The notes beneath the pieces were generated by a model. It was not told where the DNA came from and did not search any database. It saw nothing but the letters and a program-made list of their open reading frames with translations. A stretch of 64,000 nucleotides of DNA, from positions 1-64,000 of the IMG/VR virus record IMGVR_UViG_3300049846_001717. The stretch is one strand, 5' to 3'. The position numbers and the translations under genes were made by a program. Of the stretch, positions 24,817-39,548 are shown in pieces (position 1 is the stretch's first letter; the number at the start of each line of letters is the position of its first letter). This stretch comes from a virus.

Positions 24817-24841
24817 GCGTATCTACCTGTGTCAAAGTGAA

Positions 24842-25194
24842 TGGATCCGGGCGGAATCGAACCGCCGTCCGAAATACCGTACTAACAGTATCTTCTCCGT
24901 GCGCAGATGGGTGTCTTATTTCGGTGTACGATGTCACACTCATCGAAGCCATCGTACACCTAGTTCATAAGGCATTCATACGATATGAACGTCTCGTATG
25001 AATTTACTCATCTATCGGTTTCCCGTTCCGTCAATTCAGTACGATGAGAGAACTGAACGAGGATTCGCATACTCTTAAGCAGCGAGAGGAAGTGCTGTGT
25101 TTGCACTTGAATTTTTGACGACAGTTACGGATGTACGTCCTTTCCGGCACGCTTCATTCTGTGTTCGTGTTTCCGTCGAAACCAGGTCGGACCC
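24842..25194 (-). ncRNA. ssrA: tmRNA (ssrA), tag peptide ANTALPLAA
   Basis: The minus-strand 5' end reads GGGTCCG then ACCTGGTTTCGACGG, the tmRNA start box. The 3' end has a T-arm (GGCGG, TTCGATT, CCGCC) and acceptor strand CGGATCC-A, which pairs over 7 bp with the 5' end. A reading frame from GCA at 25104 to TAA at 25075 encodes ANTALPLAA, the length and LAA ending of ssrA tags, preceded by an A-rich resume region. Several stable stems between the tag and the tRNA part fit pseudoknots (GTACGATG with CATCGTAC). tmRNA frees stalled ribosomes and tags the product for proteases. No CCA is encoded. It lies just after the gene ending at 25194. Confidence 0.95.
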
Positions 25195-26253: not shown

Positions 26254-26263
26254 TTACGAGTAA

Positions 26264-26350
26264 CGGAAAGTAAGAGATTCGAACTCTTGATCCCTTTAGA
26301 GGGGACACACCGTTTTCAAGACGGGCTCCTAGACCAACCGGACACTTTCC
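26264..26350 (-). tRNA. tRNA-Ser(UGA)
   Basis: Standard class-II fold with a long variable arm. The anticodon loop CTTGAAA gives UGA. The acceptor stem has 7 bp and N73 is G. No CCA is encoded. Confidence 0.92.
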
Positions 26351-26431
26351 AAGTATATGTAACCTTCATTCTACTTTGTCATTCTACATGCAAGATTGCT
26401 CCATTTGGGTAATCACCGTAATCTACTCTAT

Positions 26432-27124
26432 TCAACCTTTGTTGGCAAGTAGCTTGTCCAACCGCCACCAGTACGTTTGATATTCGCCCTTAATTTGCAA
26501 CTTCTGCTTGAACAACGGATAGTCGGCGGCGTACTTATCGTTCTTTTCGCCTTCCGTTGCGTTGGCCAATCGATCACAGAGCTTTACGAATACAGCTTCA
26601 CGATCGGTATTAATTCGATCATAATAGCTGGTATTGGATTCCTTCGGTCGTTTGGTTACAAGGTCAACGATGTGTGCCACTTTTGGACCAAATTGTTTTT
26701 CCAATTGTTCCTTAGTGATGGATGTATCTTCCAACACATCATGCAACAATGCGGCCTGTCGTGACGCTGTTGTGCCGCCCTGTGCTAGTTGAAATACTTT
26801 GAGCAAATGATATTTGTATGGCTTATTTCCATACATCTGATCGCCATGGGCTCTGAGCGCAAAGTTGAGAGCCGACCCATAGTTTTGCTGTAGGTGACTG
26901 TCCGGAGCTTTCCCGGCTCGTCCTGATCTACCCGATGATCTATGTTGTGGATGATCGGGGTCCGTTTCTTTATCAAAGATATACTCTAACTTCCCATCCA
27001 CCGTTCGGGCCACGATCTCACCAGATGAATTGGCCCAATAACCCCACCCCTTACTGATCAAGCCACGCTTTTTAGCCTCGTCGCTGGCAGTAGATTCATT
27101 GAATATTTCAAGTAGTAGGATCAT
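26432..27124 (-). CDS. RelA/SpoT-type HD hydrolase (possible ppGpp hydrolase)
   Basis: A 230-residue protein. Residues about 85-200 match the hydrolase half of RelA/SpoT or MESH1: FALRAHGDQMYGNKPYKYHL, AALLHDVLEDT (the HDxxED motif), YDRINTDREAVFVKLCDRLANAT. No synthetase domain is seen. It may lower host (p)ppGpp during infection. The N-terminal 75 residues hold a separate domain (GWGYWANSSGEIVARTVDG). It lies between two serine tRNAs. Confidence 0.78.
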   Translation of the reverse strand: MILLLEIFNESTASDEAKKRGLISKGWGYWANSSGEIVARTVDGKLEYIFDKETDPDHPQHRSSGRSGRAGKAPDSHLQQNYGSALNFALRAHGDQMYGNKPYKYHLLKVFQLAQGGTTASRQAALLHDVLEDTSITKEQLEKQFGPKVAHIVDLVTKRPKESNTSYYDRINTDREAVFVKLCDRLANATEGEKNDKYAADYPLFKQKLQIKGEYQTYWWRLDKLLANKG

Positions 27125-27145
27125 GCGATTCTCTATTCGATTAAA

Positions 27146-27228
27146 CGGAATGCCAGGGAATCGAACCCTGTTGTCCTTGCGGACGTACCTCGGTTCCAGC
27201 GAGGCTCCTAGCCAATCGGTTACATTCC
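27146..27228 (-). tRNA. tRNA-Ser(GGA)
   Basis: Class-II fold with a long variable arm. Loop CTGGAAC gives GGA. The acceptor is GGAATGT with GCATTCC. A CTATTTATAG motif lies about 106 nt upstream. No CCA is encoded. Confidence 0.92.
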
Positions 27229-27333
27229 AACGCGTTCACCTTTACCCATGACCATCGAGGTCATTTCACCCCATTCTATTCATGCACGCCCAACTAACGG
27301 TCCTAAGTTCGAATGGTATGGAACGCAAGGTAT

Positions 27334-27343
27334 CTATAAATAG
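27334..27343 (-). promoter_or_regulatory. CTATTTATAG motif upstream of tRNA-Ser(GGA)
   Basis: Same motif as the copies at 6412, 18646 and 56850, here between the MazG-like gene and tRNA-Ser. It may start a tRNA transcript. The assignment rests only on recurrence. Confidence 0.3.
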
Positions 27344-27344
27344 G

Positions 27345-27632
27345 TTACTTGGATGCTTTCGCCGCTCGCAAATCCATATCCTTCTGGATCATGGAGGCAA
27401 GGGCGAAAATACAGCCAACCGCAACGTCCATCAGTTCGTTGCCTGTTTCGATGGGGTCGTTCTGCTTGACAGCATCCATCAGTTCGAAATATTCTTCGGT
27501 GATGATGCCAAGTGATTCGTGGCTACTGATATACGCGCCGGTGCCATGCTTTTCGATCTTCTGGCCTAGTGCAACGGTCGCGGCTTCAATCGCCTTGAGT
27601 AGAGCGTCATCAGATACTTTCGGTCGTTCCAT
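27345..27632 (-). CDS. MazG-like nucleotide pyrophosphohydrolase
   Basis: 95 residues from ATG at 27632, which has SD GAGG; a longer frame exists but is not needed. TEEYFELMDAV followed by NELMDVAVGCIFAL is the ExxE...ExxD pattern of the MazG family. Such enzymes clear (p)ppGpp-related or modified nucleotides. Together with the RelA/SpoT-type HD hydrolase nearby this suggests control of host nucleotide alarm signals. Confidence 0.75.
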   Translation of the reverse strand: MERPKVSDDALLKAIEAATVALGQKIEKHGTGAYISSHESLGIITEEYFELMDAVKQNDPIETGNELMDVAVGCIFALASMIQKDMDLRAAKASK

Positions 27633-28062
27633 GTGTAACCTCGGGTGTGGGCCAGACATACGGGAGGTCGTCTGGCATGTTTTTGAAATACTTGGAGTAG
27701 TGCTTGAAATCCTTTCGGAGCAGATTGGACTTGTGTGAACGATGTAGCGGCTTTCGGGGGCCGATCCACGGCGGGAAGCCAGTGAAATTCCGAGACACTC
27801 GAGCTTGGAAATACGGCAACAGGCTGTCGTTGTAGCCGCGGCGCCGCCATTCCAAACAGATATACATGCCGTACAGTGCCAACGCACCTTCGTAACCGGT
27901 CCACATCTTGACGGCAGGGTGGTTGCGCCAGCCCTTGGTCTGCGTCTCGTTCAGTAGGATTTGTAGGATCTGCTTGGCTTCAACACGTTGCTTGCCAAGC
28001 CGGCGGTAGTCGAGGACACGGGCCGTGCGCTCGAAATCGGGATATGGAAGGAATGTCTGCAT
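27610..28062 (-). CDS. MSMEG_6728-like protein
   Basis: A 150-residue protein beginning MQTFLPYPDFERTARVLDYR, then LGKQRVEAKQIL and WRNHPAVKMW. This is the conserved start of a family of bacterial and phage proteins annotated as pyrimidine-dimer-glycosylase-like or MSMEG_6728. The activity is not proven. It overlaps the MazG gene by 23 nt. Confidence 0.75.
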   Translation of the reverse strand: MQTFLPYPDFERTARVLDYRRLGKQRVEAKQILQILLNETQTKGWRNHPAVKMWTGYEGALALYGMYICLEWRRRGYNDSLLPYFQARVSRNFTGFPPWIGPRKPLHRSHKSNLLRKDFKHYSKYFKNMPDDLPYVWPTPEVTHGTTESI

Positions 28063-28136
28063 ACCCGTAAACTAACCTTTCGGCACGCGCCTGGCAACCC
28101 TCCGGCACGCGCCAGGCTTGCGTCTGGCCGTCTAAA

Positions 28137-28209
28137 AACCCCCGGTGGGACTCGAACCCACATCTCCTGTTACGGTGGCCCGTTTAGGAAACGGGACCGA
28201 TACGGGGGG
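28137..28209 (-). tRNA. tRNA-Arg(CCU)-like, D-arm replaced
   Basis: A standard T-arm (GTGGG, TTCGAGT, CCCAC) and a 5-bp anticodon arm with loop TTCCTAA (CCU) are clear, and the acceptor pairs over 6 of 7 bp. Only TATCGGT links acceptor and anticodon arm, too short for a D-arm. CGGT pairs with ACCG beyond the arm, so a stem encloses the anticodon arm. The two Ile(GAU) genes share this plan. Confidence 0.7.
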
Positions 28210-28216
28210 CAACTGT

Positions 28217-28429
28217 TTATCGAGGGTCGGTGTTGTTTTTGAACGCGTGGATTGCGATCTCGGCCTCCCACAACTTGTTTTCTACGTGTTCATCGTATGG
28301 ATATCCGTTTTGCTTCTTCGATTCATCCAACCAATATCGATACGAGTCGATTAGAACTCGTAGGATAGCTTTGGACTGAGGCGATTTAACCGACGCCTCT
28401 ATTGCGTCCAGTTCGTCATAACTGATCAT
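28217..28429 (-). CDS. Small hypothetical protein
   Basis: A 70-residue helical protein (MISYDELDAIEASVKSPQSK...). Its ATG overlaps the stop of the upstream amber-containing gene (ATGA), so translation is coupled to it. No family is recognised. Confidence 0.6.
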   Translation of the reverse strand: MISYDELDAIEASVKSPQSKAILRVLIDSYRYWLDESKKQNGYPYDEHVENKLWEAEIAIHAFKNNTDPR

Positions 28430-28659
28430 GTGATACGTGCCTCAGACTTGCCGTTGACGGTGATGATTTCGAGCGTGCCCTTGAACTTGATACTACCCTT
28501 CGTGTGAGGGTTATCCGGCGTTTCCTTCGTAGAAAACCCGACCTGTGAATCTACATGCCACACGTAATGAGTTTGGCCCTTGTGTTTGATGACCCACGGA
28601 GGAATGCCCTACGGATCAGTGATATGAGCCTTGTTGAAATGAAAGACGATGGTATCCAT
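28426..28659 (-). CDS. Small protein gene with in-frame amber (TAG) codon
   Basis: From ATG at 28659 the frame reads MDTIVFHFNKAHITDP, then TAG at 28609-28611, then stays open for 60 more codons (GIPPWVIKHKGQTHYVWHVD...) to TGA at 28426. That stop overlaps the ATG of the next gene. The downstream half has no other start codon. A phage tRNA with anticodon CUA lies 0.9 kb upstream on the same strand, so the codon could be read through. A decayed gene is the plain alternative. Confidence 0.65.
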
Positions 28660-28660
28660 G

Positions 28661-28840
28661 TTACTTAGTGTCCAATTTATTAGCCAATGTTTTTAACTTT
28701 CTAAGAGCAGATTTATACTTCGTCACAGCAAGTTTCCATTCAGGGGATGAATATGTTCCACGTCGATAGGCATTTCCCCATTCATCAAGAATATTTTCCA
28801 TTTCATTCATTATAACATCATTTTTGTTAAGATTTTTCAT
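28661..28840 (-). CDS. Small helical hypothetical protein
   Basis: 59 residues from the ATG at 28840, which overlaps the TAA of the upstream gene (TAATG) and follows SD GAGGAG. It is Lys-rich and helical (SALRKLKTLANKLDTK). Its base composition is more AT-rich than the structural genes, as with the next two genes. Confidence 0.6.
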   Translation of the reverse strand: MKNLNKNDVIMNEMENILDEWGNAYRRGTYSSPEWKLAVTKYKSALRKLKTLANKLDTK

Positions 28841-29061
28841 TACCACTCCTCGTATGAGGTAACATCCAATGTTTCATTGGTTAATGCATCATGAATTTTA
28901 ACAATGGTTCCCAAGCCAGTAGGCGTAAAACTATAAGTAAATCTACCACCAGCGGCACCGGTGCGGCGCGATATCTTCTTTTCTTTAATTATCGTATCCA
29001 AAAATTCTACCCACTTTTCAATTTTTGGAGCGGCATCAAGTGGTATATTAAATAGAGTCAT
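28840..29061 (-). CDS. Small hypothetical protein
   Basis: A 73-residue protein (MTLFNIPLDAAPKIEKWVEF...) with a Gly/Arg patch SRRTGAAGGRFTYSF. It overlaps the Pth2-like gene by 4 nt. No family is recognised. Confidence 0.6.
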   Translation of the reverse strand: MTLFNIPLDAAPKIEKWVEFLDTIIKEKKISRRTGAAGGRFTYSFTPTGLGTIVKIHDALTNETLDVTSYEEW

Positions 29062-29417
29062 TTCACAAGTGATAGATGTTTAAGTGCTTTTGCCTCTTCT
29101 CGGGTCAATGGACCGATACCAAGTGCAGTCATAATAGGGTTGCCATCAAAGTGAGGAGGCATAACATGGCCAGAATCAATGATGAGACTGTGTGGCCACC
29201 CATTGGCCTTCGCCAGTTTGACCAAGGCACGTATATCGGTGACAGAGCCTTCTAGAGTGACCTTCGTACCCAATCCACCCTTCTGATAGAGCCTGGCACG
29301 CCTGGGATTGAGTTGAACACACTCCAAATACGAATTAAGGAAAGCGTGACCCGCTTGAGCGGCCAGCTTTCCTGTCGGCATGTGTAAATCTTTACGAACT
29401 ATGGCATAGAGCTTCAT
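29058..29417 (-). CDS. Peptidyl-tRNA hydrolase, Pth2 type
   Basis: A 119-residue protein: KLYAIVRKDLHMPTGKLAAQ, AGHAFLNSY, TKVTLEG, LIIDSGHV and TALGIGPLTREEAKAL. The last two are the Pth2 fingerprint (usually TVLGIGP near the end). Pth2 frees tRNA from dropped peptides and is typical of archaea and eukaryotes but also occurs in phages and some bacteria. It fits the phage tRNA and tmRNA equipment around it. Confidence 0.88.
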   Translation of the reverse strand: MKLYAIVRKDLHMPTGKLAAQAGHAFLNSYLECVQLNPRRARLYQKGGLGTKVTLEGSVTDIRALVKLAKANGWPHSLIIDSGHVMPPHFDGNPIMTALGIGPLTREEAKALKHLSLVK

Positions 29418-29442
29418 GTTGACTTCATCTTCCTAGAACATA

Positions 29443-29529
29443 TTATTTGGTCTTTTTGTTATGGGTTTTAGCGTGTTTTAACGCTTGTTTCATGGACTTC
29501 ATGAGTTCTTTAAATAGTTTCTTTTTCAT
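29443..29529 (-). CDS. Short Lys-rich peptide
   Basis: A 28-residue frame (MKKKLFKELMKSMKQALKHA...) ending TAA. It is strongly basic and helical, suited to binding RNA. It starts 2 nt before the suppressor tRNA gene ends and precedes the Pth2 gene, which supports but does not prove translation. Confidence 0.5.
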   Translation of the reverse strand: MKKKLFKELMKSMKQALKHAKTHNKKTK

Positions 29530-29530
29530 A

Positions 29531-29602
29531 AGCTCGTGGCGAGGCTTGAACTCGCTTCTTTCGTTTTAGAGACGAAGGCACCGGCCGATATACCACACGA
29601 GC
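29531..29602 (-). tRNA. Amber suppressor tRNA, anticodon CUA
   Basis: All four arms fold: acceptor GCTCGTG/CACGAGC, D-arm, anticodon stem TTCGT/ACGAA with the 7-nt loop CTCTAAA, short variable loop and T-arm GCGAG/CTCGC. U33 is kept and positions 34-36 read CUA, pairing with UAG. N73 is U. The first 20 bases resemble the neighbouring tRNA-Val(GAC). The amino acid it carries cannot be told. Confidence 0.9.
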
Positions 29603-29618
29603 GTTTTCAAAATAATAG

Positions 29619-29691
29619 TGCTCACGGAAAGGATCGAACTTTCTGTCTCTACTATGTCAAAGTAGCGTGTTAGCCGGTACACCACGCGAGC
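29619..29691 (-). tRNA. tRNA-Val(GAC)
   Basis: Standard class-I fold with anticodon stem CTACT/AGTAG and loop TTGACAT. No CCA is encoded. It shares its acceptor and D-region pattern with the suppressor tRNA downstream. Confidence 0.9.
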
Positions 29692-29771
29692 GATCGAGAG
29701 TTCACGAAATTTAACGTTCTTGGTACTCACAACTTTCTTTACGAACGTATAATCTGTGCACAGATTATAAG

Positions 29772-29858
29772 AGGATCGGACAGGATTCGAACCTGTGATT
29801 AAGTCTTTCGACTATATGGTTTTGCAGACCATTGCGTTGGCCACTTCGCTACCGATCC
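29772..29858 (-). tRNA. tRNA-Cys(GCA) with long variable arm
   Basis: Anticodon loop CTGCAAA gives GCA. The variable region is AGTC-GAAA-GACT, a class-II arm with a GNRA loop, unlike the usual short variable loop of tRNA-Cys. Acceptor and T-arm are standard. A long arm is a SerRS recognition feature, so charging with Ser or Cys is open. Confidence 0.85.
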
Positions 29859-29863
29859 AAAAG

Positions 29864-29956
29864 AGCGATTTCCTGAGTCGAACAGGTCTTCGTACCTGGA
29901 GGGGTACGCGTGCTGATGGATCATCTTGCGACAACCCGCCGTTACACTAAAACCGC
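29864..29956 (-). tRNA. tRNA-Trp(CCA)-like with D-region hairpin insert
   Basis: The acceptor GCGGTTT/AAATCGC and T-loop TTCGACT are present, though only four T-stem pairs form. Between the D-loop start (GTGTAACGG) and D-stem end (GCAC) lies an insert with a GCAA-loop hairpin (TTGTC-GCAA-GATGA). The anticodon stem CGTAC/GTACG has an 8-nt loop CCCTCCAG, or a 6-nt loop if extended. CCA is the best anticodon reading. A normal tRNA-Trp exists at 44270. Confidence 0.6.
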
Positions 29957-30096
29957 AAATTGGCGCAAAGGGTGGAATTGTACATCCACTACAGAATTGA
30001 ATCCCCTTGCATATTACTGGCGGCAGGCGAAGGATCTACCCCTTCATACATAGTCAATGCTAGCCCGCCAAACTGATTTTCACGAGGTTGTTACAA
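29957..30096 (-). other. Structured spacer between tRNAs, unassigned
   Basis: TTGGCG near 30072 can pair with CGCCAA near 29958, and hairpins GAAGG/CCTTC and GTGGA/TCCAC lie within. No canonical T-arm or anticodon loop is found. It looks tRNA-sized but cannot be assigned. Confidence 0.3.
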
Positions 30097-30170
30097 TAGC
30101 GGAGGTTGGATTTGAACCAACGTCCTTCCGGTTATGAGCCGGACGCGCTGCCGGGCTGCGCCACTCCGCG
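30097..30170 (-). tRNA. Initiator-type tRNA-fMet(CAU)
   Basis: The sequence closely follows bacterial initiator tRNA: CGCGGAG start, D-arm GCGCAGCCCGGCAGCGCG, loop CTCATAA, T-loop TTCAAAT. Positions 1 and 72 are C and U, a mismatch as in initiators. The anticodon stem ends in two G:C pairs, not the usual three. No CCA is encoded. Confidence 0.85.
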
Positions 30171-30219
30171 TCAATGTTACTTTAACTGTCGAACTTTGAT
30201 CTCATACGTCCCTGTGGGG

Positions 30220-30555
30220 GTTGGATGCCAATAGCCAGGATTCTGTATAATGACAATCATTTGACTCAGTCCTCTTGCGAGGACCGCCCCACGTTTATAG
30301 TGAGGTGCTCTCAACCCGATACCTTTGGTCAGACGGACCCGTATCTGCTCGAGATTGCAGCGCCTATCCTGTCGCCCGTTTCATCCACCGCGTTATCGTG
30401 GCTCGTTTCTGTTGCCGTGACTCCATTTCGGAAAATACGAATTTCTCCATAAGATTCCTTATAGGGGAGCAGCTTCCACTCTAGGCTGTCTTGTGCTGTC
30501 CTGAACTTCCTCAACGTACAATCTAGTGTACGCCGCGATTGTCTAGGCATCCAAC
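30220..30555 (-). ncRNA. rnpB: RNase P RNA (M1-like)
   Basis: The ends pair over 10 bp (GTTGGATGCC with GGCATCCAAC, P1). GACAATC pairs with GATTGTC (P2), and CAGGA with TCCTG (P4). Conserved boxes are recognisable: GAGGAAGTTCAGG (CR-I), GGCAACAGAAACGA (CR-III), GATGAAACGG, CTCGAGCAGA (CR-IV) and CAAATGATTGTC...ACAGAATCCTGGCTA (CR-V). The P4 pairs differ from E. coli in a compensated way. It is about 336 nt, a normal size. RNase P makes tRNA 5' ends; the gene sits inside the tRNA array. The protein subunit was not found in this window. Confidence 0.93.
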
Positions 30556-30695
30556 TGTTTTACGATGTCCCGCAATTCCTTCCATTCGTCCTTCGTGAAT
30601 TCCGAACCATCCTTGTACATCGGACCGACAAACGTGTCACCCGAATGTAGTCTAACATGTTCGATGAACTTTGTCAAGAGCGATTTGTAGTTCAT
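30543..30695 (-). CDS. Small protein upstream of RNase P RNA
   Basis: A 50-residue frame (MNYKSLLTKFIEHVRLHSGD...) with SD AAGGA. Its last four codons and TAG overlap the P1 strand of RNase P RNA, so the two must come from one transcript or compete for it. No family is recognised. Confidence 0.65.
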   Translation of the reverse strand: MNYKSLLTKFIEHVRLHSGDTFVGPMYKDGSEFTKDEWKELRDIVKQLDA

Positions 30696-30734
30696 TGTAA
30701 TCCTTACTTCTTGGGAACTTATACTGCATGGAGA

Positions 30735-30831
30735 GGTCAGGTGCTAGCCATGTCTGGCAGAAGGTGTCTTAGTAGTCTTGCAGGCATCCCTGTAGTGTCT
30801 ATAAGCATAATCTTCTTTTGCATACCTGACC
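30735..30831 (-). other. Stem-closed intergenic element between tRNA-Pro and a small gene
   Basis: GGTCAGGT (30824-30831) pairs with ACCTGACC (30735-30742), closing about 80 nt. A 28-codon frame starting ATG at 30823 (MQKKIMLIDTTGMPARLLRH...) lies inside. It may be a small peptide or a non-coding spacer; the stem starts 3 nt after tRNA-Pro. Confidence 0.35.
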
Positions 30832-30834
30832 AAG

Positions 30835-30907
30835 TCGGAAAGACAGGACTTGAACCTGCAACCCCCTGGTCCCAAACCAGGTGATCTGCCAATTGATCTA
30901 CTTTCCG
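30835..30907 (-). tRNA. tRNA-Pro(UGG)
   Basis: Standard fold with stem CCTGG/CCAGG and loop TTTGGGA, anticodon UGG. The acceptor is CGGAAAG with CTTTCCG. A second UGG gene lies at 38401. No CCA is encoded. Confidence 0.9.
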
Positions 30908-31247
30908 AGTAGAGGGGAACGGGCTGAGAATACACCCGTTCTAGTCATCCTTTTGAACCATTATCCATCCCACATCCCTGTGAGACGTTCGATTCGTTTC
31001 CACGGTGACTCTCACCGTCGATGACCACAGCGACCTTTTTTAAAGTGTGGCGTTTCACTTGTCGTCTAGCACTTCTCGACACTTCTCCTACCGTCTGCCT
31101 TGCGAGCAGTACACAGTCGCTAAACCGTTACGTGCGGGTCTATATCGAAGACTCTCTGGCTTGGGGCCATCGAATCCGCCGTCTTCCTTGCGGGACGGCA
31201 TTACGCTGTTTATCATGCTTAGACCGAGGAAGTCTTTCCGTTTTTGG
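30908..31247 (-). ncRNA. Structured non-coding stretch, candidate large RNA
   Basis: 340 nt without a credible gene. It contains several GCAA-loop hairpins (near CCCGCAAGG and CTCGCAAGG) and a GACGGTGA/TCACCGT stem. Its density of hairpins resembles large phage-associated RNAs, but no family could be matched by eye. Confidence 0.35.
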
Positions 31248-31318
31248 ATTCGTATGATGGATTTGAACCACCATTAAATTGTTAATAGCAATGTGCCTTA
31301 CCGTTAGGCAAATACGAC
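31248..31318 (-). tRNA. tRNA-Asn-like (anticodon AUU)
   Basis: T-arm GGTGG/CCATC with loop TTCAAAT, D-arm GCC/GGC, and anticodon loop CTATTAA on a 4-bp stem. Positions 34-36 read AUU, with an unusual A34, and the first acceptor pair is mismatched (G:A). This may be a decaying gene. Two normal Asn(GUU) genes are at 40894 and 40996. Confidence 0.55.
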
Positions 31319-31933
31319 TTTGAACGAAGTGCTTCCTCAGTTGTTCCAATGACTTTTGATCATCAGAATGCAACACTCCGCGGCTACCGTTCCCCCTGAA
31401 CAGGGTACTACGTCATACGTCACGAACTCGGGCTGGCCTCTTAATAGCGGACAGCTCAGTTCATTAGTATTCCTGTGAAGCTCTTGGTTTCAAGGCCTCG
31501 AACCTCACAAGTATCTGTTACCTATCTGTTCTCGCGTGTGGGTTGAAATGGAGCCCGGCACCACCCGTCAGACTTCATGAACTTGCTTTCCTTCCCGAAG
31601 GAAGGGGCGTCAGCCCACGTTTTTCCCATTTCCACGCTTCGAACCTATCACCGAACCTTCGCCCGATGCTACTGGCTTCGAACCAGTAAAGGCCAGACTT
31701 GTTTGGATGAACCGTCTTGCGACGGCCCGGGTTACAAAGATAGCCCGGTTTATAGGCCTTACGACCTACTGTTCTTACGGAGTCCAAACACCCCGTTGTT
31801 TCGATTATCAAACAACACTACAATATGGCGGTGTAAAATCAAACTCGATTGTTACAACCCAATCAAGAATTGCCCTGATCGTAAATCCCGTAGTTGCGTT
31901 AGAGTTTCACGACCCTATTGATTTCACACCATA
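31319..31933 (-). ncRNA. Long structured non-coding stretch with tRNA-like fragment
   Basis: 615 nt with no supported gene. At 31667-31756 a T-arm (ACTGG, TTCGAAG, CCAGT) follows a D-like region with a GCAA hairpin (CCGTC-GCAA-GACGG) that matches the insert in the tRNA at 29864; no anticodon loop is visible. The rest holds several long stems. It may be one large RNA together with 30908-31247. Confidence 0.35.
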
Positions 31934-32005
31934 TAGCTCTTACGGGTATCGATCCCGTTTTCACAGCTTGAAAGGCTGTTGTCCTAGCCAGTAGACGAAA
32001 GAGCC
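31934..32005 (-). tRNA. tRNA-Glu(UUC)
   Basis: Standard fold with stem ACAGC/GCTGT and loop CTTTCAA, anticodon UUC. The first acceptor pair is G:U. The T-loop ATCGATA lacks T54, as in the Asp and His genes of this array. Confidence 0.9.
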
Positions 32006-32182
32006 ATCGTTTCCTACTCATGTAACCTAATATATCGAACCCCATTTGGCAAGGGGTGAAACAACAGTAAGAAAACGGCACCGTTTATCTCGTGCGATAC
32101 GGCCTAGGCAATTCACACGCCGCAGAATCCTGACTGGACTTACCCGATCCGGTGCGTGCCGAATCGTTGTTGTTTCAAAAAC
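32006..32182. other. Intergenic, no gene seen
   Basis: This stretch holds a short stem (ACCCC/GGGGT) and no reading frame with a start signal on either strand. I see no further feature in it. Confidence 0.4.
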
Positions 32183-32289
32183 GAAACTATAGGCGGGATT
32201 CGAACCCAGCTCTCCGGCATTTGCGTGCCTACTCCACCGCGTGGGTGTCTCGGACTTCCGATGTGCTTCCAGTTACACTACTATGTTTC
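32183..32289 (-). other. tRNA-like element with several extra hairpins
   Basis: The ends pair (GAAAC-ATAG with CTAT-A-GTTTC, one bulge), a T-loop TTCGAAT and a D-like GTGTAACTGGAAGCAC are present. No 7-nt anticodon loop is found between them. Three short hairpins lie there instead. It may be a tRNA remnant or tRNA-mimic. Confidence 0.4.
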
Positions 32290-32292
32290 AAG

Positions 32293-32365
32293 AGCGAATG
32301 AAGGGACTCGAACCCTCAACAACCACCTTGGCAAGGTGGTACTCTGCCAATTGAGTTACATTCGC
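32293..32365 (-). tRNA. tRNA-Gly(GCC)
   Basis: Standard fold with stem CCACC/GGTGG and loop TTGCCAA, anticodon GCC. A second GCC gene is at 44580. No CCA is encoded. Confidence 0.92.
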
Positions 32366-32373
32366 AACTTCTG

Positions 32374-32661
32374 TTACTTCACTGCCAATACGTTGGATTC
32401 CGGCAATACGTAGAACTTCTCGCCGTTGTCTTCCACTTCGAACGCATTGAACTTCTGGAACCAGATCGTGTCACCGACCTTCAAATCCACGGGCGTTCGT
32501 TCGCCGGTTGACGACCACTTGCCTCTGCCCACAGCAACCACTTCGCCGGTGATGACTTGGCCCGTATTCGCCGACGTTTCGGGAATATACAAACCAGCAG
32601 CGGTAGTCTGTGATCCAGCGGTACGTACTCGTACCATCACATTATCGTTCAGAACTCGCAT
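32374..32661 (-). CDS. groES: Co-chaperonin GroES-like
   Basis: A 95-residue protein, the usual GroES size. It shows VMVRVRTAGSQTTAAGLYIP (mobile-loop region), TGEVVAVGRGKW and KVGDTIWFQKF. It caps GroEL-type chaperonins to fold proteins. Phages such as T4 carry a GroES substitute (gp31) for capsid folding; here a full GroEL lies 13 kb away at 45708. It is flanked directly by tRNA genes, an odd place for a chaperonin gene. Confidence 0.9.
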   Translation of the reverse strand: MRVLNDNVMVRVRTAGSQTTAAGLYIPETSANTGQVITGEVVAVGRGKWSSTGERTPVDLKVGDTIWFQKFNAFEVEDNGEKFYVLPESNVLAVK

Positions 32662-32683
32662 GAAACCTCTTGGTTGTCGTACA

Positions 32684-32753
32684 TAGCCCCTGGGGGAATC
32701 GAACCCGCATTCGCTGATCCAAAGTCAGCTGTCCTACCATTGAACGAAGGGGC
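32684..32753 (-). tRNA. tRNA-Gln(UUG)
   Basis: Fold complete with stem GCTGA/TCAGC, loop CTTTGGA, anticodon UUG. The acceptor starts G1 rather than the U1 of the two other Gln genes at 41379 and 41453. No CCA is encoded. Confidence 0.88.
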
Positions 32754-32759
32754 AATAAT

Positions 32760-33017
32760 TCAAACTTTTCGCAACTTGAACATCGTATCGATGCCGTTGG
32801 CATCCGTACCGTGTCGTAAGAATACGATAGGTGTATCCACTCCGTCAAACTTGACACCAACCGCTTCGAACGATAACTGTGGTTGATCCGTGGCTTTGAT
32901 CACAAGACCGCGGGTTCCTGTGAGGAGGAACGTTGGTGCGGCCGATGCACCGTCCAGATGATAGACTGTATCTTCCGTTATTTCCACAACATCGTTTACT
33001 TGTAACTGTGTATTCAT
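32760..33017 (-). CDS. Small hypothetical protein
   Basis: An 85-residue beta-rich protein (MNTQLQVNDVVEITEDTVYH...) that could form an SH3- or Tudor-like barrel (GTRGLVIKATDQPQLSFEAV). It sits between two tRNA genes. No family is recognised. Confidence 0.6.
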   Translation of the reverse strand: MNTQLQVNDVVEITEDTVYHLDGASAAPTFLLTGTRGLVIKATDQPQLSFEAVGVKFDGVDTPIVFLRHGTDANGIDTMFKLRKV

Positions 33018-33020
33018 AAG

Positions 33021-33093
33021 AGCAAGTAGCGGGATTCGAACCCGCGACGTCCTGCTTGGAAGGCAGGCATTCTAGCCACTGAATTATACTTGC
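33021..33093 (-). tRNA. tRNA-Gly(UCC)
   Basis: Standard fold with stem CCTGC/GCAGG, loop CTTCCAA, anticodon UCC. A stem-closed element lies 3 nt upstream of its 5' end. No CCA is encoded. Confidence 0.92.
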
Positions 33094-33095
33094 AT

Positions 33096-33176
33096 TGACC
33101 CTATCTTGAATGCCGTTTTTTAGCGAGGACTTCCAAAACCTCGTACTATCTCTCGACTCAAATCATTAATAGGGTC
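33096..33176 (-). other. Stem-closed element before tRNA-Gly(UCC)
   Basis: A 10-bp perfect terminal stem (TTGACCCTAT with ATAGGGTCAA) closes about 60 nt containing a CGAGG/CCTCG hairpin with a 10-nt loop. No T-loop or frame is seen. Similar elements lie at 30735, 33505 and 38108. Confidence 0.4.
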
Positions 33177-33224
33177 AACCCGCATTAAATCTCAGAGGAT
33201 TTGGTAATGGGGCAAGTTATGATT

Positions 33225-33452
33225 CTATCGAGAATTTCGTGATTTAATATGTCTGGAGTAAGTTTCTGTTTGCGAATGGCAATTGGGACAGAGTAATCTT
33301 AGATTCGATGACAAATTATTCTTGTTATCGCCGTCGATGTGATCTAATTGAAGAACCAATCTCTTACCTCTAAAGATCGAACAGTGACTAACAATTCGAA
33401 ACGGAGCAATATCAATCCTATCGGAAGTGGTCAGGGTGGGATTCGAACCCAC
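33225..33452 (-). CDS. HNH endonuclease fragment
   Basis: The last about 45 residues carry an HNH core (QLDHIDGDNKNNLSSNLRLL, CPNCHSQTE). The frame continues upstream into tRNA-Val, so the true start must lie downstream of about 33427, and no good ATG or SD is visible there. It is AT-rich and may be a truncated homing endonuclease. Confidence 0.5.
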   Translation of the reverse strand: MGSNPTLTTSDRIDIAPFRIVSHCSIFRGKRLVLQLDHIDGDNKNNLSSNLRLLCPNCHSQTETYSRHIKSRNSR

Positions 33453-33502
33453 GGGATGCCGCGGTGTAGGCGCGGTGCACTAGGCCTCTATGCGACCCGA
33501 CC
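33428..33502 (-). tRNA. tRNA-Val(UAC) with C33
   Basis: Stem CCGCG/CGCGG encloses loop CCTACAC, giving UAC at 34-36, but position 33 is C instead of the near-universal U. Other arms are standard. No CCA is encoded. Confidence 0.8.
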
Positions 33503-33504
33503 AT

Positions 33505-33638
33505 TATGTTGTGTGGACTGCTGTAGACTGTAGTAAGGAAGCTCTACGTCGCCGTGAACTCATTAAGTGGCTACAGATTTGGAATTCATTGAAGTTGTCT
33601 TTTGACGGGTGGATTACCCACTTCGTTAAATTCCTACC
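33505..33638 (-). other. Stem-closed element before tRNA-Val(UAC)
   Basis: TTGTGTGG pairs with CCACACAA over 8 bp, closing about 118 nt. Its 3' end is 2 nt before the tRNA 5' end. Internal stems (GTGGGT, CTGTAG/CTACAG) are seen, but no T-arm or gene. Confidence 0.4.
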
Positions 33639-33648
33639 ACACAACAAG

Positions 33649-33732
33649 TACCGGAGAAGGGAGTCGAACCCTTAGAGCCGAAGCCCACTCGATCTTAAGC
33701 CGAGCGTGTACTGCCAATCCCACCACACCGGT
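33649..33732 (-). tRNA. tRNA-Leu(UAA)
   Basis: Class-II fold with stem CTCGG/TCGAG and loop CTTAAGA, anticodon UAA. The variable arm is long, as expected for Leu. One acceptor pair is U:U. No CCA is encoded. Confidence 0.9.
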
Positions 33733-33739
33733 ATATCAG

Positions 33740-33813
33740 TGCCGGCCACGAGACTCGAACTCGTAAGATCCTGTTTTTGAGACAGGAATGTCTGCCAATT
33801 GCATCAGACCGGC
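33740..33813 (-). tRNA. tRNA-Leu(CAA) anticodon, short variable loop
   Basis: Stem CCTGT/ACAGG, loop CTCAAAA, anticodon CAA. The variable loop is only ATCTT, a class-I length, while bacterial Leu tRNAs are class II. A normal class-II CAA gene lies 84 nt away. The gene at 37721 (CAG) has the same plan. Confidence 0.8.
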
Positions 33814-33896
33814 ATATTGAATCTAGAGCTTCCCGCCCGAATACCAGGGACACGGTTATCTCAGCGTAGAGTGGCCACTCTCGCTTTTCGACTCAG

Positions 33897-33978
33897 TGCT
33901 CCAGAAGGGACTCGAACCCTTAAGCCGTTGGGGCAGAAGTTTTTGAGACTTCCGTGTATACCATTCCACCACCGGAGC
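33897..33978 (-). tRNA. tRNA-Leu(CAA), class II
   Basis: Stem GAAGT/ACTTC with loop CTCAAAA, anticodon CAA, and a variable arm of about 14 nt. Acceptor GCTCCGG/CTGGAGC. No CCA is encoded. Confidence 0.9.
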
Positions 33979-34040
33979 ATTGTGTAATCGTTGATCACGG
34001 AGCATTACGACTCCGGCCTTTCGGCTATGGTCCAACAAAA

Positions 34041-34148
34041 TACCGGTGGATGGATTTGAACCATCACTTATCGAAAGGTAATGAGCCTCTCAGTTGACAT
34101 GTTCACCAGCTGTGTGAACACCGCTTCTTCCAATTGAGCGACACCGGC
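34041..34148 (-). tRNA. tRNA(CAU) with hairpin insert after the D-arm
   Basis: Acceptor GCCGGTG/CACCGGT region, T-loop TTCAAAT and anticodon arm with loop CTCATTA (CAU) are standard. Between D-arm (GCTCAATTGGAAG) and anticodon stem about 33 extra nt form a 7-bp hairpin (TGTTCAC/GTGAACA). Met or lysidine-type Ile is possible. Confidence 0.7.
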
Positions 34149-34152
34149 ATTT

Positions 34153-34302
34153 CTATTTCTTCTTTGCGACGTACTTGTGATTTGGATGAAACCACGTGCA
34201 GGCACACGGTTTACCAATCGTGCTATGACACTGACCTTCACTTAAGTGGTGATATTTGGCCGTATGACCACAATCACACTTCACGTTCTTTGGAATCGTC
34301 AT
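34153..34302 (-). CDS. Small Cys/His-rich protein, zinc-binding
   Basis: A 49-residue frame (MTIPKNVKCDCGHTAKYHHL...), with CDCGH, QCHS, CACTWFH and HKY giving a likely zinc site. Its start lies 2 nt from the tRNA-Leu(UAG) 3' end. A similar class of Cys-rich mini-proteins is found at 36154 and 36297. Confidence 0.7.
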   Translation of the reverse strand: MTIPKNVKCDCGHTAKYHHLSEGQCHSTIGKPCACTWFHPNHKYVAKKK

Positions 34303-34303
34303 A

Positions 34304-34386
34304 TGCGGATGAAGGGAGTCGAACCCTTAACCTATTCAGTACTAGATCCTAAGTCTAGCGCGTACTGCCAATCCCGCCACACCCGC
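34304..34386 (-). tRNA. tRNA-Leu(UAG)
   Basis: Class-II fold with stem CTAGA/TCTAG, loop CTTAGGA, anticodon UAG and a long variable arm. The anticodon pairs with CUA codons and is not a suppressor. No CCA is encoded. Confidence 0.9.
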
Positions 34387-34607
34387 GTATCGTACGTTTT
34401 TGGTAGAACGTACAAACTATCCGAGAGATGCCCCTCCGGCCAATCCATTTTGACGGAATGGATAAACCGTGTTGTTTCCCCGCTACCAAATGATGGTCCT
34501 GTCTATCGGATGCCTTGTCAGTGCGCCGTCATTACGGCGTGCGTCAGAATCGATGAACGTTTCCTAGGACATTCATAAACCCCTCGGCCCTTACTCCTAT
34601 AAGTATA
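34387..34607 (-). other. Intergenic region between AAA+ gene and tRNA-Leu(UAG)
   Basis: A GTACGTT/AACGTAC hairpin lies next to the tRNA. GTATACTTATAG near 34595 resembles the TATTTATAG motif and might start the tRNA transcript. No gene is supported on either strand. Confidence 0.35.
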
Positions 34608-35990
34608 CTACATCACCGCGTTTTTGGCAAGCCCCGGTCGATTTTTCAGTTTATTCCGAAATCGAAATATTGGAGTTTGCTGTTCCACCGGGGTCGGTTC
34701 AACCGTGGTCGGTGGGGTTGCCACGAACTCGACGGGTTGAAGGGCTTCCGTTACCGTATCTCGCATCATTATGAACAGTTCACCCTGTGCGGCCGCCATG
34801 CTGATCTCTCGTTCCTTGTACTTCTGGCTGAACCGTTCTGCGCCGTCGGTATCACCAGGAAAGAACTTCAAATAGAGCTTGACGAGTTGTTGCCGTGATG
34901 CGTTGTCCACCAGAATCCGTCGGTCAATGCGACCAGGTCGAATCAACGCCGGATCCAAATGTTCGATATGGTTGGTGGTCATGATGATGATACGGGGCGA
35001 ATCGGACACCATAACACCATCGATGGAATTCAAGACTTCACTGAACGAGGCCGTGCGCTTCTTTGGCGCGTCCTCTTTCTTATCACCAGAAGAGGGTTCG
35101 GGCTCTTCGTTCATCAAAATCGTTGACGACCGCGAACTCATACCCAACAACGTGGCGTCTACATCTTCAATCAAGAGGATGCTATTACCCGGCAAACTAC
35201 TCAACGACACATCCATTTTCATCATCTGTTCCGACGTATATCGGCAGATGGTCATATTGAGTTCAGATGCCAACGTTCGAACCAACGTGGTTTTACCGTT
35301 GCCCGGCGGGCCATATAGGATGTAGCCGCGGCGAAATGGCACACCCAATCCCAAATACCAATCTTTCTTTGCAAGAAACTGACGAATGTCTGTGGCCAAC
35401 ATGTCGATGGTATTGTTGTCATCGATGACCGTTTCCTTGCTTCGTTTTGCGGTATACCCGACGACCACCCATCCGTTTTGTGACGTCCATTGCATGACCG
35501 GAACCGTGTCCGTTCGCAACGATGCATTGTATGCATCCGTCATGTGTTTGAGAAACGATTCCACAATCTTTCGACTGTTGCGACCCGTTCGGGCCAGATG
35601 GATCTTTCGAACTTCCATTGTCGATTCTTTATTGGCTTTTTCCGAGGAGAACGACACGAAGATTCGTTTTCCTTCATGAAGAATCTTGAACGAACCGGTT
35701 TTTGGACGAAGACGGGGCGTATAGACGTAGGTACCGTTTTTCTGTCGTGTGTAATCCCATGTGGTGTTCATCACGTTGATCCGTCGATCCGTGTGATGAT
35801 TATCGAAATACCAATTGACGACTACGCTGACTTCCAGTTCGGTCGAAAATCGAAAGTACGAGAATGCTCTAGACCAATATTTGCTAAACGTCGATTTTGC
35901 CAGTGTAACGGCCGTACCCATCAATCCAAGAACAAAGCCACCTTGGAACAGTGGATTCTGCGTCAATCCTTCAAATAACGGTAACGTCAT
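34608..35990 (-). CDS. BCS1-like AAA+ ATPase with N-terminal membrane helix
   Basis: A 460-residue protein. A hydrophobic helix near residues 18-33 (GFVLGLMGTAVTLA) is followed by a BCS1-type middle domain and a AAA+ core: Walker A YGPPGNGKTTL, Walker B ILLIEDVDA, and TTNHIEHLDPALIRPGRID (sensor/second region of homology). BCS1-type ATPases translocate folded proteins in mitochondria. Homologs occur in large phages, with unknown roles. The C-terminus is Pro-rich. Confidence 0.85.
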   Translation of the reverse strand: MTLPLFEGLTQNPLFQGGFVLGLMGTAVTLAKSTFSKYWSRAFSYFRFSTELEVSVVVNWYFDNHHTDRRINVMNTTWDYTRQKNGTYVYTPRLRPKTGSFKILHEGKRIFVSFSSEKANKESTMEVRKIHLARTGRNSRKIVESFLKHMTDAYNASLRTDTVPVMQWTSQNGWVVVGYTAKRSKETVIDDNNTIDMLATDIRQFLAKKDWYLGLGVPFRRGYILYGPPGNGKTTLVRTLASELNMTICRYTSEQMMKMDVSLSSLPGNSILLIEDVDATLLGMSSRSSTILMNEEPEPSSGDKKEDAPKKRTASFSEVLNSIDGVMVSDSPRIIIMTTNHIEHLDPALIRPGRIDRRILVDNASRQQLVKLYLKFFPGDTDGAERFSQKYKEREISMAAAQGELFIMMRDTVTEALQPVEFVATPPTTVEPTPVEQQTPIFRFRNKLKNRPGLAKNAVM

Positions 35991-36154
35991 TGGTCCGTGT
36001 GTGTAGGGTTTTCAAATTCAGGAGCACCAAGCTCTGCCGCGAATTCCGGATCCACCGCGGCTAATTGTCGATGGGCCGACACTTGTAGGAATATTGACTC
36101 TCGTTCTTTTTCAGTCATATCGTCTACATCGATATATTTGATCATATCGAACAT
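35987..36154 (-). CDS. Small acidic hypothetical protein
   Basis: 55 residues from the ATG at 36154, which overlaps the TAA of the zinc-ribbon gene (TAATG); a longer frame begins upstream but conflicts with it. Sequence MFDMIKYIDVDDMTEKERES is helical and acidic. Its stop overlaps the AAA+ gene start by 4 nt, so the small genes are coupled. Confidence 0.6.
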   Translation of the reverse strand: MFDMIKYIDVDDMTEKERESIFLQVSAHRQLAAVDPEFAAELGAPEFENPTHTDQ

Positions 36155-36300
36155 TAGTAACAGCCACCACACCAACTTTGATGATAACTATGACGGTCTT
36201 CCCATTCAACCGGCCGTGGTGCCGGACGTCGTTCTCGGTATTCTGCAACCCGTCCACACCCGGGACATTCGTATACCGTGATGAAGTACCAGCATTTCAC
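36154..36300 (-). CDS. Small zinc-ribbon protein, GTG start
   Basis: 48 residues read from GTG at 36300, overlapping the TGA of the previous gene. ECPGCGRVAEY and SWCGGCY form two CxxC knuckles. This is a probable nucleic-acid or protein-binding mini zinc ribbon. Confidence 0.6.
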   Translation of the reverse strand: MKCWYFITVYECPGCGRVAEYRERRPAPRPVEWEDRHSYHQSWCGGCY

Positions 36301-36452
36301 GGCTTTTGATGTTTGTTTTTGGGTCGATGATGACAGCTTGAACACTTTTCCCCCGGCCGTACTTTGGCCATATCACATGAACACCACTGACTTCGAGCAC
36401 CTTTCGGGGTGGTTTTCTTCACCCGATTTTCTTTTTTGAGCGGATATTTCAT
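36297..36452 (-). CDS. Small Cys-rich protein
   Basis: 51 residues, start 36452, basic N-terminus (MKYPLKKENRVKKTTPKGAR), then WCSCD and CSSCHH as a likely zinc site. The start is 2 nt after the tRNA-Arg(UCU) 3' end. No family is recognised. Confidence 0.65.
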   Translation of the reverse strand: MKYPLKKENRVKKTTPKGARSQWCSCDMAKVRPGEKCSSCHHRPKNKHQKP

Positions 36453-36453
36453 A

Positions 36454-36527
36454 CGCCCCCGGCAGGATTCGAACCTGCACTAATGGAGATTAGAAGTCTC
36501 CCTGACTGTCCTGTTGCCGACGGGGGC
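36454..36527 (-). tRNA. tRNA-Arg(UCU)
   Basis: Stem GGAGA/TCTCC and loop CTTCTAA give UCU. The acceptor is GCCCCCG/CGGGGGC and the D-stem is only 3 bp. N73 is G. No CCA is encoded. Confidence 0.88.
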
Positions 36528-37200
36528 TTATTGTAATAGTTCGAGTTGACCTCGGAGTACGTCTTTCAACCGGACTTTCTTATCCGATCGATGATCGGTG
36601 ACGATACCGTCCTGTTCCCGATACGTTCGAATCTTATCGCCTCGCATTCCCGAACCTACAAGCTGTTTGCGGTCACCATCGGCTTGCCGTTTCGATTGTT
36701 CGGCCATATACGTGGCTACTCGATGTTCCAACAGTTCACGAGCAGTACGACGATTCTGATGTTGACTCTTCTCTGCGGCTTTCGCTTCGATCTTTGTTGG
36801 TTCGTGCCGCATGATGACACATGATTCAGTCTTGTTACGATGTTGACCGCCGGGGCCGGAATCCTTAGTGGTAAACGTCGTAATGTCTGATTCCTTCAAT
36901 CGCCATGACGCAGGTTCTTTGATCTCAAAGACGGCTACGGTGACGGTTGATGTGTGAACCCGACCACGACGTTCGGTGGGCGGAATACGTTGCCATCGAT
37001 GACCACCTGATTCATTCATCAATAATCGGAGCTTTGAATCGGTGCCTTCGATGATCAGGTCAAAGACTACCTCGGTTCTCCGAAATCACGGACGCGCCGA
37101 GACGAGAGGCAAACGACAGATAGATGTTGGCTTGGTTGGACACGAGCAGTTTTGCATCAGTGCCACCTTCACCAGGTCGGATTTCTACGAGGTATTTCAT
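36528..37200 (-). CDS. Class-I peptide release factor with prfB-like +1 frameshift
   Basis: Frame 1 starts at 37200 (MKYLVEIRPGEGGTDAKLLV...) and stops at TGA 37060-37062 after 46 codons. Skipping one T of CTT-TGA-C continues in +1 frame as DLIIEGTDSKLRLLMNESGG and ends at 36528, about 223 residues in total. The catalytic GGQ is in SGPGGQHRNKTES, and the recognition segment RIPPTERRGRVHTS has PPT, like RF1's PxT, not RF2's SPF. GAGGT sits 3 nt before CTT, as in bacterial prfB. The N-terminal domain 1 is absent. Confidence 0.85.
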
Positions 37201-37222
37201 CGAAATTCTCATTAAAGGAAAG

Positions 37223-37299
37223 TGCTCCTAGTGGGACTCGAACCCACACTTGACGGCTTCTCGAACCGTTGACTCTGCCTGAGATTGGTCTACAGGAGC
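37223..37299 (-). tRNA. tRNA-Leu(GAG)-like
   Basis: Acceptor GCTCCTG/TAGGAGC, T-arm GTGGG/CCCAC, D-arm GAC/GTC. The best anticodon arm is ACGGT/GCCGT with loop TCGAGAA, so 34-36 read GAG and position 33 is C. The variable loop is short. Other loop alignments are possible, so the isotype is uncertain. Confidence 0.6.
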
Positions 37300-37343
37300 A
37301 TTAATGTCGGTTTTGAGAGAACCGACAAACTCGTATGACTCGC

Positions 37344-37613
37344 TTAGGCGATCGTCCATTCGGAAATGGAGCGGCCCTTTGCAGCGGGACGGCTCGAGTA
37401 CGTATACCCGACCTGTTCGAAGCCATTGCTGAATGCAGCATTGATGAAGCTCAAACGAGTACGGACCTTCATTTCATCGATGCCGTTCTTGCCGAGGTAG
37501 TTGTGCGCGTCATCGGCCGTTACAACGCCCGACGAACGACGATTTGCGAGGCTACGTAGATAGCCACGGAGGCCCGATACCATCTTTTCACGCTTCTGAT
37601 TTGACATAGACAT
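37344..37613 (-). CDS. Hypothetical protein
   Basis: 89 residues from ATG at 37613 (SD AAGGAG); a longer frame starts at 37652. Sequence MSMSNQKREKMVSGLRGYLR is basic and the centre (VVTADDAHNYLGKNGIDEMK) could be a helix-turn-helix. DNA or RNA binding is possible. Confidence 0.6.
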   Translation of the reverse strand: MSMSNQKREKMVSGLRGYLRSLANRRSSGVVTADDAHNYLGKNGIDEMKVRTRLSFINAAFSNGFEQVGYTYSSRPAAKGRSISEWTIA

Positions 37614-37720
37614 TAGTGTCTCCTTGATTACAATGTGAAGGTGATTCTCCACATCATACCGAAAGATAGTTCACATGTCGTCTTCTGTCAAGTCGTTGAT
37701 ATTACCTAGATTGTAGACAA

Positions 37721-37794
37721 TGCACTCGGTGGGACTCGAACCCACAAGATTTCGCTTCTGAGACGAAAATGTCTGCCAATTGCATCACGAGTGC
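37721..37794 (-). tRNA. tRNA(CAG), Leu anticodon, short variable loop
   Basis: Stem TTCGT/GCGAA with loop CTCAGAA, anticodon CAG. The variable loop is ATCTT, as in the CAA gene at 33740, with which it shares D-arm ATGCAATTGGCAGACAT. These two form a sub-family. Confidence 0.8.
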
Positions 37795-37797
37795 GTA

Positions 37798-37871
37798 TAG
37801 CGCTTATGGGAATCGAACCCATCATCAACTGATTGAAAGTCAGTGGTCCAGAACCGATAGACGGAAGCGCC
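37798..37871 (-). tRNA. tRNA-Glu(UUC), second copy
   Basis: Stem ACTGA/TCAGT, loop CTTTCAA, anticodon UUC. It differs from the copy at 31934 in acceptor and T-arm, so it is not a recent duplicate. No CCA is encoded. Confidence 0.9.
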
Positions 37872-37942
37872 GTGCAGGGTTGTTGTTCGCTAGTCATCGG
37901 CCGATGGCATCGCTCCCGCCAGTAACTCCCCAAACTGGCTCA

Positions 37943-38014
37943 TAGCTCTAACGGGAATCGAACCCGTCTTTGCGCCTTGAGAGGGCGCCGTCCTCGCCGA
38001 TAGACGATAGAGCC
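37943..38014 (-). tRNA. tRNA-Glu(CUC)
   Basis: Stem GCGCC/GGCGC and loop CTCTCAA give CUC. The acceptor GGCTCTA is almost that of the UUC gene at 31934. No CCA is encoded. Confidence 0.9.
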
Positions 38015-38029
38015 ATACATTAATACATA

Positions 38030-38106
38030 GTCGAAGTGGCGAGATTTGAACTCGCATGATGTCCTGTATCCGAAACAGGCGACTTGCCAATTAGTCCACA
38101 CTTCGA
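38030..38106 (-). tRNA. tRNA-Pro(CGG)
   Basis: Stem CCTGT/ACAGG, loop TTCGGAT, anticodon CGG. Acceptor TCGAAGT/ACTTCGA with C73. A long structured element ends 2 nt before its 5' end. Confidence 0.88.
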
Positions 38107-38107
38107 T

Positions 38108-38372
38108 TTGGTGTAATAAACCATCCGGCGGCGAATTCTGCCCCACAACCACCGACGCTAGACCGAGAGGAGTTGCCATGCCGTAGGTAAAGAATCTCGG
38201 ATCTCCCACGAGTTTAGCTGAGCACCCGGCATTGGGAGTGGACTAAGTTGCCCGTATCGAAGGCGAGAAACTGGATTCGACCGACACGACCTCGGTATAC
38301 AGTGACTAACGCGTGCTAAACTCGTATCCATTGCATGTTTCTGCGGTCTTCATATCTACTACACCAATTACT
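38108..38372 (-). ncRNA. Stem-closed structured RNA candidate before tRNA-Pro(CGG)
   Basis: TTGGTGTA pairs with TACACCAA (8 bp) around about 250 nt. Inside, ACGAGTTTAGC pairs perfectly with GCTAAACTCGT (11 bp). No frame is supported. Its closing stem ends 1-2 nt from a tRNA, like the elements at 33096 and 33505. Confidence 0.45.
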
Positions 38373-38400
38373 TGGAAACTTCAAACGTTATTCCAAATAA

Positions 38401-38477
38401 GTCGGAGTGGTGAGAATCGAACTCACTCGAATACCCTGATTCCAAGTCAGGGAGGCTCCCGGCGCCTTTCACTCCGA
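38401..38477 (-). tRNA. tRNA-Pro(UGG), second copy
   Basis: Stem CCTGA/TCAGG, loop CTTGGAA, anticodon UGG. Acceptor TCGGAGT/ACTCCGA, C73, closely like the Pro(CGG) gene. No CCA is encoded. Confidence 0.9.
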
Positions 38478-39545: not shown

Positions 39546-39548
39546 AAG

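Follow-up and report, generated by a model that had tools for sequence, protein, structure and literature searches.

TAG-recoded phages, including crAss-like, Lak and code-15 jumbo phages, carry suppressor tRNAs with a CUA anticodon (PMC9523058, PMC8346664, PMC13037316). Stenotrophomonas phage Summit, a relative of DLP5, is a published example of a phage that has an amber tRNA and the standard code; its authors sought targets of the tRNA and found none (PMC9022506). Huge phages encode the release factors RF1 and RF2, CCA-adding enzymes and tmRNA. A term search of the main text of that study finds neither suppressor tRNAs nor RNase P, and an in-frame UGA gate is absent from its passages about release factors (Al-Shayeb 2020, PMC7162821). 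In bacteria, the RF2 gene prfB is controlled by a +1 frameshift, and no control of this kind was seen in prfA when more than 12,000 bacterial genomes were surveyed (PMC12421855).

We analyzed a stretch of 64,000 nucleotides (the window) from a 98,055-base IMG/VR virus record, which is a genome fragment. The source is a large tailed phage with baseplate genes, and no near DNA relative was found among GenBank phages. The tRNA island of this phage includes a tRNA with a CUA anticodon (Table 1). We propose that this tRNA is a working amber decoder that is added to the cell while the genetic code stays unchanged, and we give this reading a probability of about 0.5.

Table 1. Translation-related features of the window discussed in the text.
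Feature	Position	Strand	Basis or remark
CCA-adding tRNA nucleotidyltransferase	1767-3365	-	TIGR02692 E 1e-79 (below curated cut-off); phrog_2244 E 9e-59
tmRNA	24839-25194	-	tag ANTALPLAA
tRNA island, ~47 tRNAs	26263-45635	-	all on minus strand
Peptidyl-tRNA hydrolase PTH2	29058-29417	-	PF01981 E 1.6e-17; next gene downstream of the CUA tRNA
Amber tRNA, anticodon CUA (CTA in DNA)	29531-29602	-	ARAGORN, Rfam, fold, arm-by-arm layout
tRNA-Val(GAC)	29618-29691	-	tandem, 15 nt upstream of the CUA tRNA
RNase P class A RNA-like	30217-30554	-	full model, 72.8 bits, E 1e-20; below the Rfam cut-off of 100
RF1-class release factor	36528-37212	-	without domain 1; PPT (PxT-type) and GGQ motifs
Frameshift site GAGGU AGU CUU UGA C	37059-37073	-	SD-like stretch, 3-nt spacer, slippery CUU UGA C

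The amber tRNA is called by ARAGORN and scores 48.7 bits against the Rfam tRNA model (cut-off 29; E 2e-7), and its cloverleaf folds at -24.5 kcal/mol, below shuffled sequences (z -2.5). All helices are intact. The acceptor stem GCTCGTG/CACGAGC is paired at 7/7 positions and the anticodon stem TTCGT/ACGAA at 5/5, U8 and the D arm are present, the variable loop has 4 nt, and the T arm reads GCGAG-TTCAAGC-CTCGC. The full cloverleaf with U33 and a CUA anticodon, reported in an earlier note made from the letters of the window, is thus borne out. The anticodon loop CTCTAAA (CUCUAAA in RNA) consists of C32, U33, CUA, A37 and A38. Natural amber suppressors that work efficiently typically have A37 and A38 next to an anticodon whose last base is A, and the loop is of the strong-suppressor type. 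Position 73 is U, the first acceptor pairs are G1:C72, C2:G71 and U3:A70, and CCA is not encoded.

TAG serves as an ordinary stop in this phage. A gene caller based on codon usage placed 149 genes on the minus strand, which end in TAA (72), TGA (59) or TAG (18); the TAG-ended genes include those of an AAA protein (460 aa) and of a protein of 741 aa. The examples of TAG ends named in the earlier note (618, 15922 and 41516) are confirmed as TAG on the minus strand, the last being a weak example because its ORF overlaps a tRNA-Gln gene. In a stricter set of 81 strong ORFs, 15 have TAG as their stop, compared with a TAG share of 21% among stop trinucleotides; therefore, TAG is not avoided. No credible internal TAG was found in the genes of this phage, and internal TAGs with coding flanks lie only on the strand opposite to the genes. 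Internal TAG candidates in two of the compared loci (L111 and L065) proved on reading to be neighboring genes in one frame, or antisense. The pattern that defines code 15, with frequent in-frame TAG in conserved genes and no TAG stops, is absent here. The closest large relative (G018, 345 kb) has a CUA tRNA of its own, and across its entire sequence 20 of 237 strong ORFs (8.4%) stop at TAG and none contains it internally. In a related phage without an amber tRNA (G065), the share is 8.2%, so that stop usage shows no visible effect of the amber tRNA. On the stop usage, the flank coding tests and G018, we rejected TAG recoding for the fragment, in line with the earlier view that the genome is not fully recoded. 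That view came with the expectation that suppression would extend proteins in part. Extension as such follows from decoding, but the frames stay open past the TAG stops for a median of only 17 codons (maximum 46), none is followed by coding-like sequence, and no extension has a positive coding score. Because the extensions are so short and unlike coding sequence, we see no sign that extension is the function.

The combination of an amber tRNA with TAG stops, which the earlier note had singled out as a mixed case of interest, is less special than it seemed, since Summit had already been published (PMC9022506) and most of the amber-tRNA loci sampled in IMG/VR are likewise free of recoding. A pattern search for the amber loop and T arm matched at least 120 stretches of IMG/VR, and 79 of 80 loci among the matches listed hold a CUA tRNA by ARAGORN. 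Among those matches, 71 loci were long enough to test, and about 10 show TAG recoding, defined as a coding gain with TAG read as sense that clearly exceeds the gain with TGA, a coarse test on short loci. The direction is nevertheless clear: in this sample, amber tRNAs mostly come without recoding. Therefore, a CUA tRNA by itself is no evidence of recoding in a phage, which matters for annotation. The CUCUAAA loop recurs on differing tRNA bodies in many large phages, in a set chosen partly by a pattern that includes this loop. The amber tRNA described here is genuine and belongs to a type that is already known and fairly common. A 735 kb phage has two CUA tRNAs in tandem (L102:10586-10739, LR756501.1), and a 636 kb phage has a tRNA with an 8-nt anticodon loop, in which ARAGORN reads the four-base anticodon UCUA (L109:5046-5121, LR756504.1).

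Which amino acid the tRNA might carry was approached with a reference of ~2,000 elongator tRNAs from the same loci, which were assigned correctly in 79-81% of cases when left out. The profile of the amber tRNA is closest to Thr, with a weak score of 2.3 (15th percentile of elongators), followed by Cys and Gly, all of which are U73 classes. U73, G1:C72 and C2:G71 would point weakly to Thr, then to Cys or Gly. Phage CUA tRNAs as a group fit the elongator classes poorly (median best score 2.2 versus 7.4), and these low scores suggest that charging of the amber tRNA may be poor. Since they are also scattered over many classes, they seem to have had many separate origins. A search for class IIa synthetases (PF00587) found none in this phage's record or in G018.

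The surroundings of the amber tRNA, to which the earlier note had given no attention, include a release-factor gene, an RNase P RNA-like element, a peptidyl-tRNA hydrolase and a CCA-adding enzyme (Table 1). The RNase P RNA-like element would be an RNase P RNA borne by a phage, and matches similar to it occur in three relatives found via the release factor (G019, G023 and G059). The region also holds a GOLLD RNA (172 bits; 30921-31383, minus strand), whose match encloses a tRNA at 31245-31318, and a tRNA-Arg with anticodon CCU at 28135-28210 (minus strand), recognized by eye and listed by neither ARAGORN nor Rfam. Also on the minus strand are genes for GroES (32374-32661) and GroEL (45708-47327), and a cluster (48719-52223) encoding an ABC-transporter ATPase, a likely permease and a solute-binding-like protein with an OmpA-like end.

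The release-factor gene lies ~7 kb upstream of the amber tRNA, on the same strand and within the same tRNA island. Its C-terminal part (36528-37019) matches the NCBIfam models of RF1 (E 5e-47) and RF2 (E 2e-27), and comparison with the PDB places RF1 structures first (E 1e-38; RF2 E ~1e-18). The SGPGGQ and PPT motifs are invariant across 8 phage release-factor proteins. The protein begins at domain 2, near position 85 of RF1, and so falls short of a full-length factor; its relatives have a short N extension. The N-terminal frame (37060-37212) ends at CUU UGA, and a +1 shift at GAGGU-AGU-CUU-UGA-C joins it to the C-terminal frame, which ends at 36528. Full-length release factor would therefore require a predicted +1 frameshift past UGA. 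A prfB-type site, in which an SD-like stretch, 3 nt and CUU UGA C are followed by the +1 frame, is present in the window, L061, L121 and L175; in L122 the site has UGA G instead of UGA C.

A search with eight such release-factor proteins gave 381 relatives in IMG/VR, of which the best 80 were kept. We read 85 phage RF1-class genes, the relatives among them being these best 80 of 381. In 75, the reading frame is interrupted by in-frame UGA (one in 64 genes, two in 11), all in the same domain-2 loop; four have a CUU-UGA +1 frameshift, one has UAG (L114:10001-10669) and five are uninterrupted. These counts are not independent events because many loci are close relatives. Loci read later added a fifth frameshift gene (L175) and a gate made of UGA plus UAG (L309). 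In a further locus (L311, G091), the RF1-class gene has a broken frame, lacks the loop and is without the CUU UGA motif. UGA recoding was rejected as the cause of the gate, TGA being the commonest stop in L110, L111 and L175. Reinitiation past the gate is unlikely: among 75 distinct contexts, the interval from the stop to the conserved GGHR is free of ATG, GTG and TTG in 42 and contains an ATG in only 5. Because UGA is a normal stop in these phages and mostly no start codon follows the gate, recoding at UGA is the best reading. The motif predicts that the factor reads UAA and UAG; the UGA gate would then be sensitive to RF2 and not to the gene's own product. Among release factors, only RF2 is known to have a gene under programmed recoding, and our literature search found no report of RF1-class phage genes gated by UGA or a frameshift. 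Specialists would be surprised by the stop-gated RF1-class factor rather than by the amber tRNA. If true, a UGA-gated RF1-class factor in ~80 phage genes would represent viral cross-control between two termination pathways.

Amber tRNAs are enriched in records with an RF1-class gene. Of 47 such records, 20 contain a CUA tRNA, compared with 2 of 23 controls selected through a tRNA-Trp pattern (Fisher p = 0.003, kinship ignored). The reverse test, for the release factor in carriers of CUA tRNAs, gave 13 of 44 versus 2 of 17 (p = 0.13, not significant). In a group of genes with two UGAs (L116, L137, L145, L148, L151 and L167), the CUA tRNA lies 1-4 kb downstream of the release-factor gene. Neither contig with a UAG-gated release-factor gene (G026, 146 kb; G065, 318 kb) contains a CUA tRNA; a candidate in the latter (L190) was a false pattern match and not a tRNA. 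The link is thus an association only, since the reverse test is not significant, kinship is uncorrected and the UAG-gate contigs are without an amber tRNA.

Several other explanations of the amber tRNA can be weighed against this evidence. It might be an inactive relic, or an uncharged copy drifting within the array, for instance of the adjacent tRNA-Val, which is its nearest array tRNA in sequence (61% of compared positions) and which its 5' end resembles. The poor isotype fit, the empty search for target genes and the unaffected stop usage would all be expected of a relic, but every stem is intact and the loop retains U33, A37 and A38. In addition, drift would not be expected to yield the same CUCUAAA loop on differing bodies, even in a set partly chosen by a pattern containing it. 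We therefore consider a relic doubtful, although it deserves serious thought. The pyrrolysine type, suggested by the ARAGORN label 'Pyl', has practically no chance of being correct. That label reflects the anticodon CTA and nothing more, and the CUA anticodon is all that speaks for it. tRNA-Pyl has a 6-pair anticodon stem, a 3-nt variable loop and G73; here, the anticodon stem has 5 pairs, the variable loop has 4 nt and position 73 is U, and there was no Rfam call of tRNA-Pyl.

The amber tRNA might instead serve late genes, recoded at TAG and located beyond the 98 kb fragment, as in code-15 phages. Recoding can be confined to late genes, the contig is a fragment, and the minority of recoded amber-tRNA loci among the matches listed provides precedents. 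However, normal stops end the window's tail and baseplate genes, and G018, with its 345 kb, its CUA tRNA and its 20 TAG stops, has no internal TAG. The release factor, which by its motif would read UAG and UAA, is moreover the opposite of the RF2 of some recoded jumbo phages (PMC13037316). Late-gene recoding is thus unlikely. Very unlikely, in our judgment, is a single switch in which the amber tRNA decodes in-frame UAG gates of the phage release factor or of another regulatory gene. The position of the CUA tRNA shortly downstream of the release-factor gene in the double-UGA group and the UAG in two gates (L114 and L309) fit such a switch, but the window's own gate consists of UGA and has no UAG, and the two UAG-gate contigs, being without the tRNA, give no support to it as the decoder of their release-factor genes.

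We therefore favor a working amber decoder under an unchanged code. The tRNA would be transcribed with the array, receive its CCA end from the phage-encoded enzyme and obtain its amino acid through a host synthetase. At UAG codons it would compete with host RF1 and with the phage RF1-class factor, and it may insert an amino acid at a minority of them. Because phage proteins would gain only short tails, the tRNA more probably pays off through host messages, by making amber mutations tolerable or by a general influence on termination. More phage release factor is expected when UGA termination by RF2 is slow, because the full-length protein needs the +1 frameshift at CUU UGA C. The island might thus be a phage-run kit for termination and translation, with the amber tRNA as one optional piece. 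More broadly, and only tentatively, large phages may control their own termination through an RF1-class factor that lacks domain 1, is nearly always gated by UGA, through readthrough or a +1 frameshift, and appears as host RF2 falls; many may add an amber tRNA that shifts the balance at UAG without recoding.

The closest described system is Summit. Like the phage studied here, it has a CUA tRNA, the standard code and genes with TAG stops, and neither an in-frame downstream gene nor a coding-like readthrough product was found in it (PMC9022506). Summit has 5 tRNAs in 95.7 kb (PMC9022506), whereas this phage encodes ~47 and, besides them, tmRNA, an RF1-class factor and a CCA-adding enzyme. TAG-recoded phages share the CUA anticodon and its place in phage tRNA arrays, but they have many in-frame TAGs, while this phage uses TAG only as a stop (PMC9523058, PMC8346664, PMC13037316). 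Several of the release-factor genes scanned here come from huge-phage records like those of Al-Shayeb 2020 (PMC7162821). Like bacterial prfB (PMC12421855), the phage gene has a purine-rich SD-like stretch, a 3-nt spacer and CUU UGA C. Unlike the prfB product, its protein is RF1-class (PPT, nearest to RF1) and lacks domain 1, and most of its phage relatives have an in-frame UGA in place of the frameshift.
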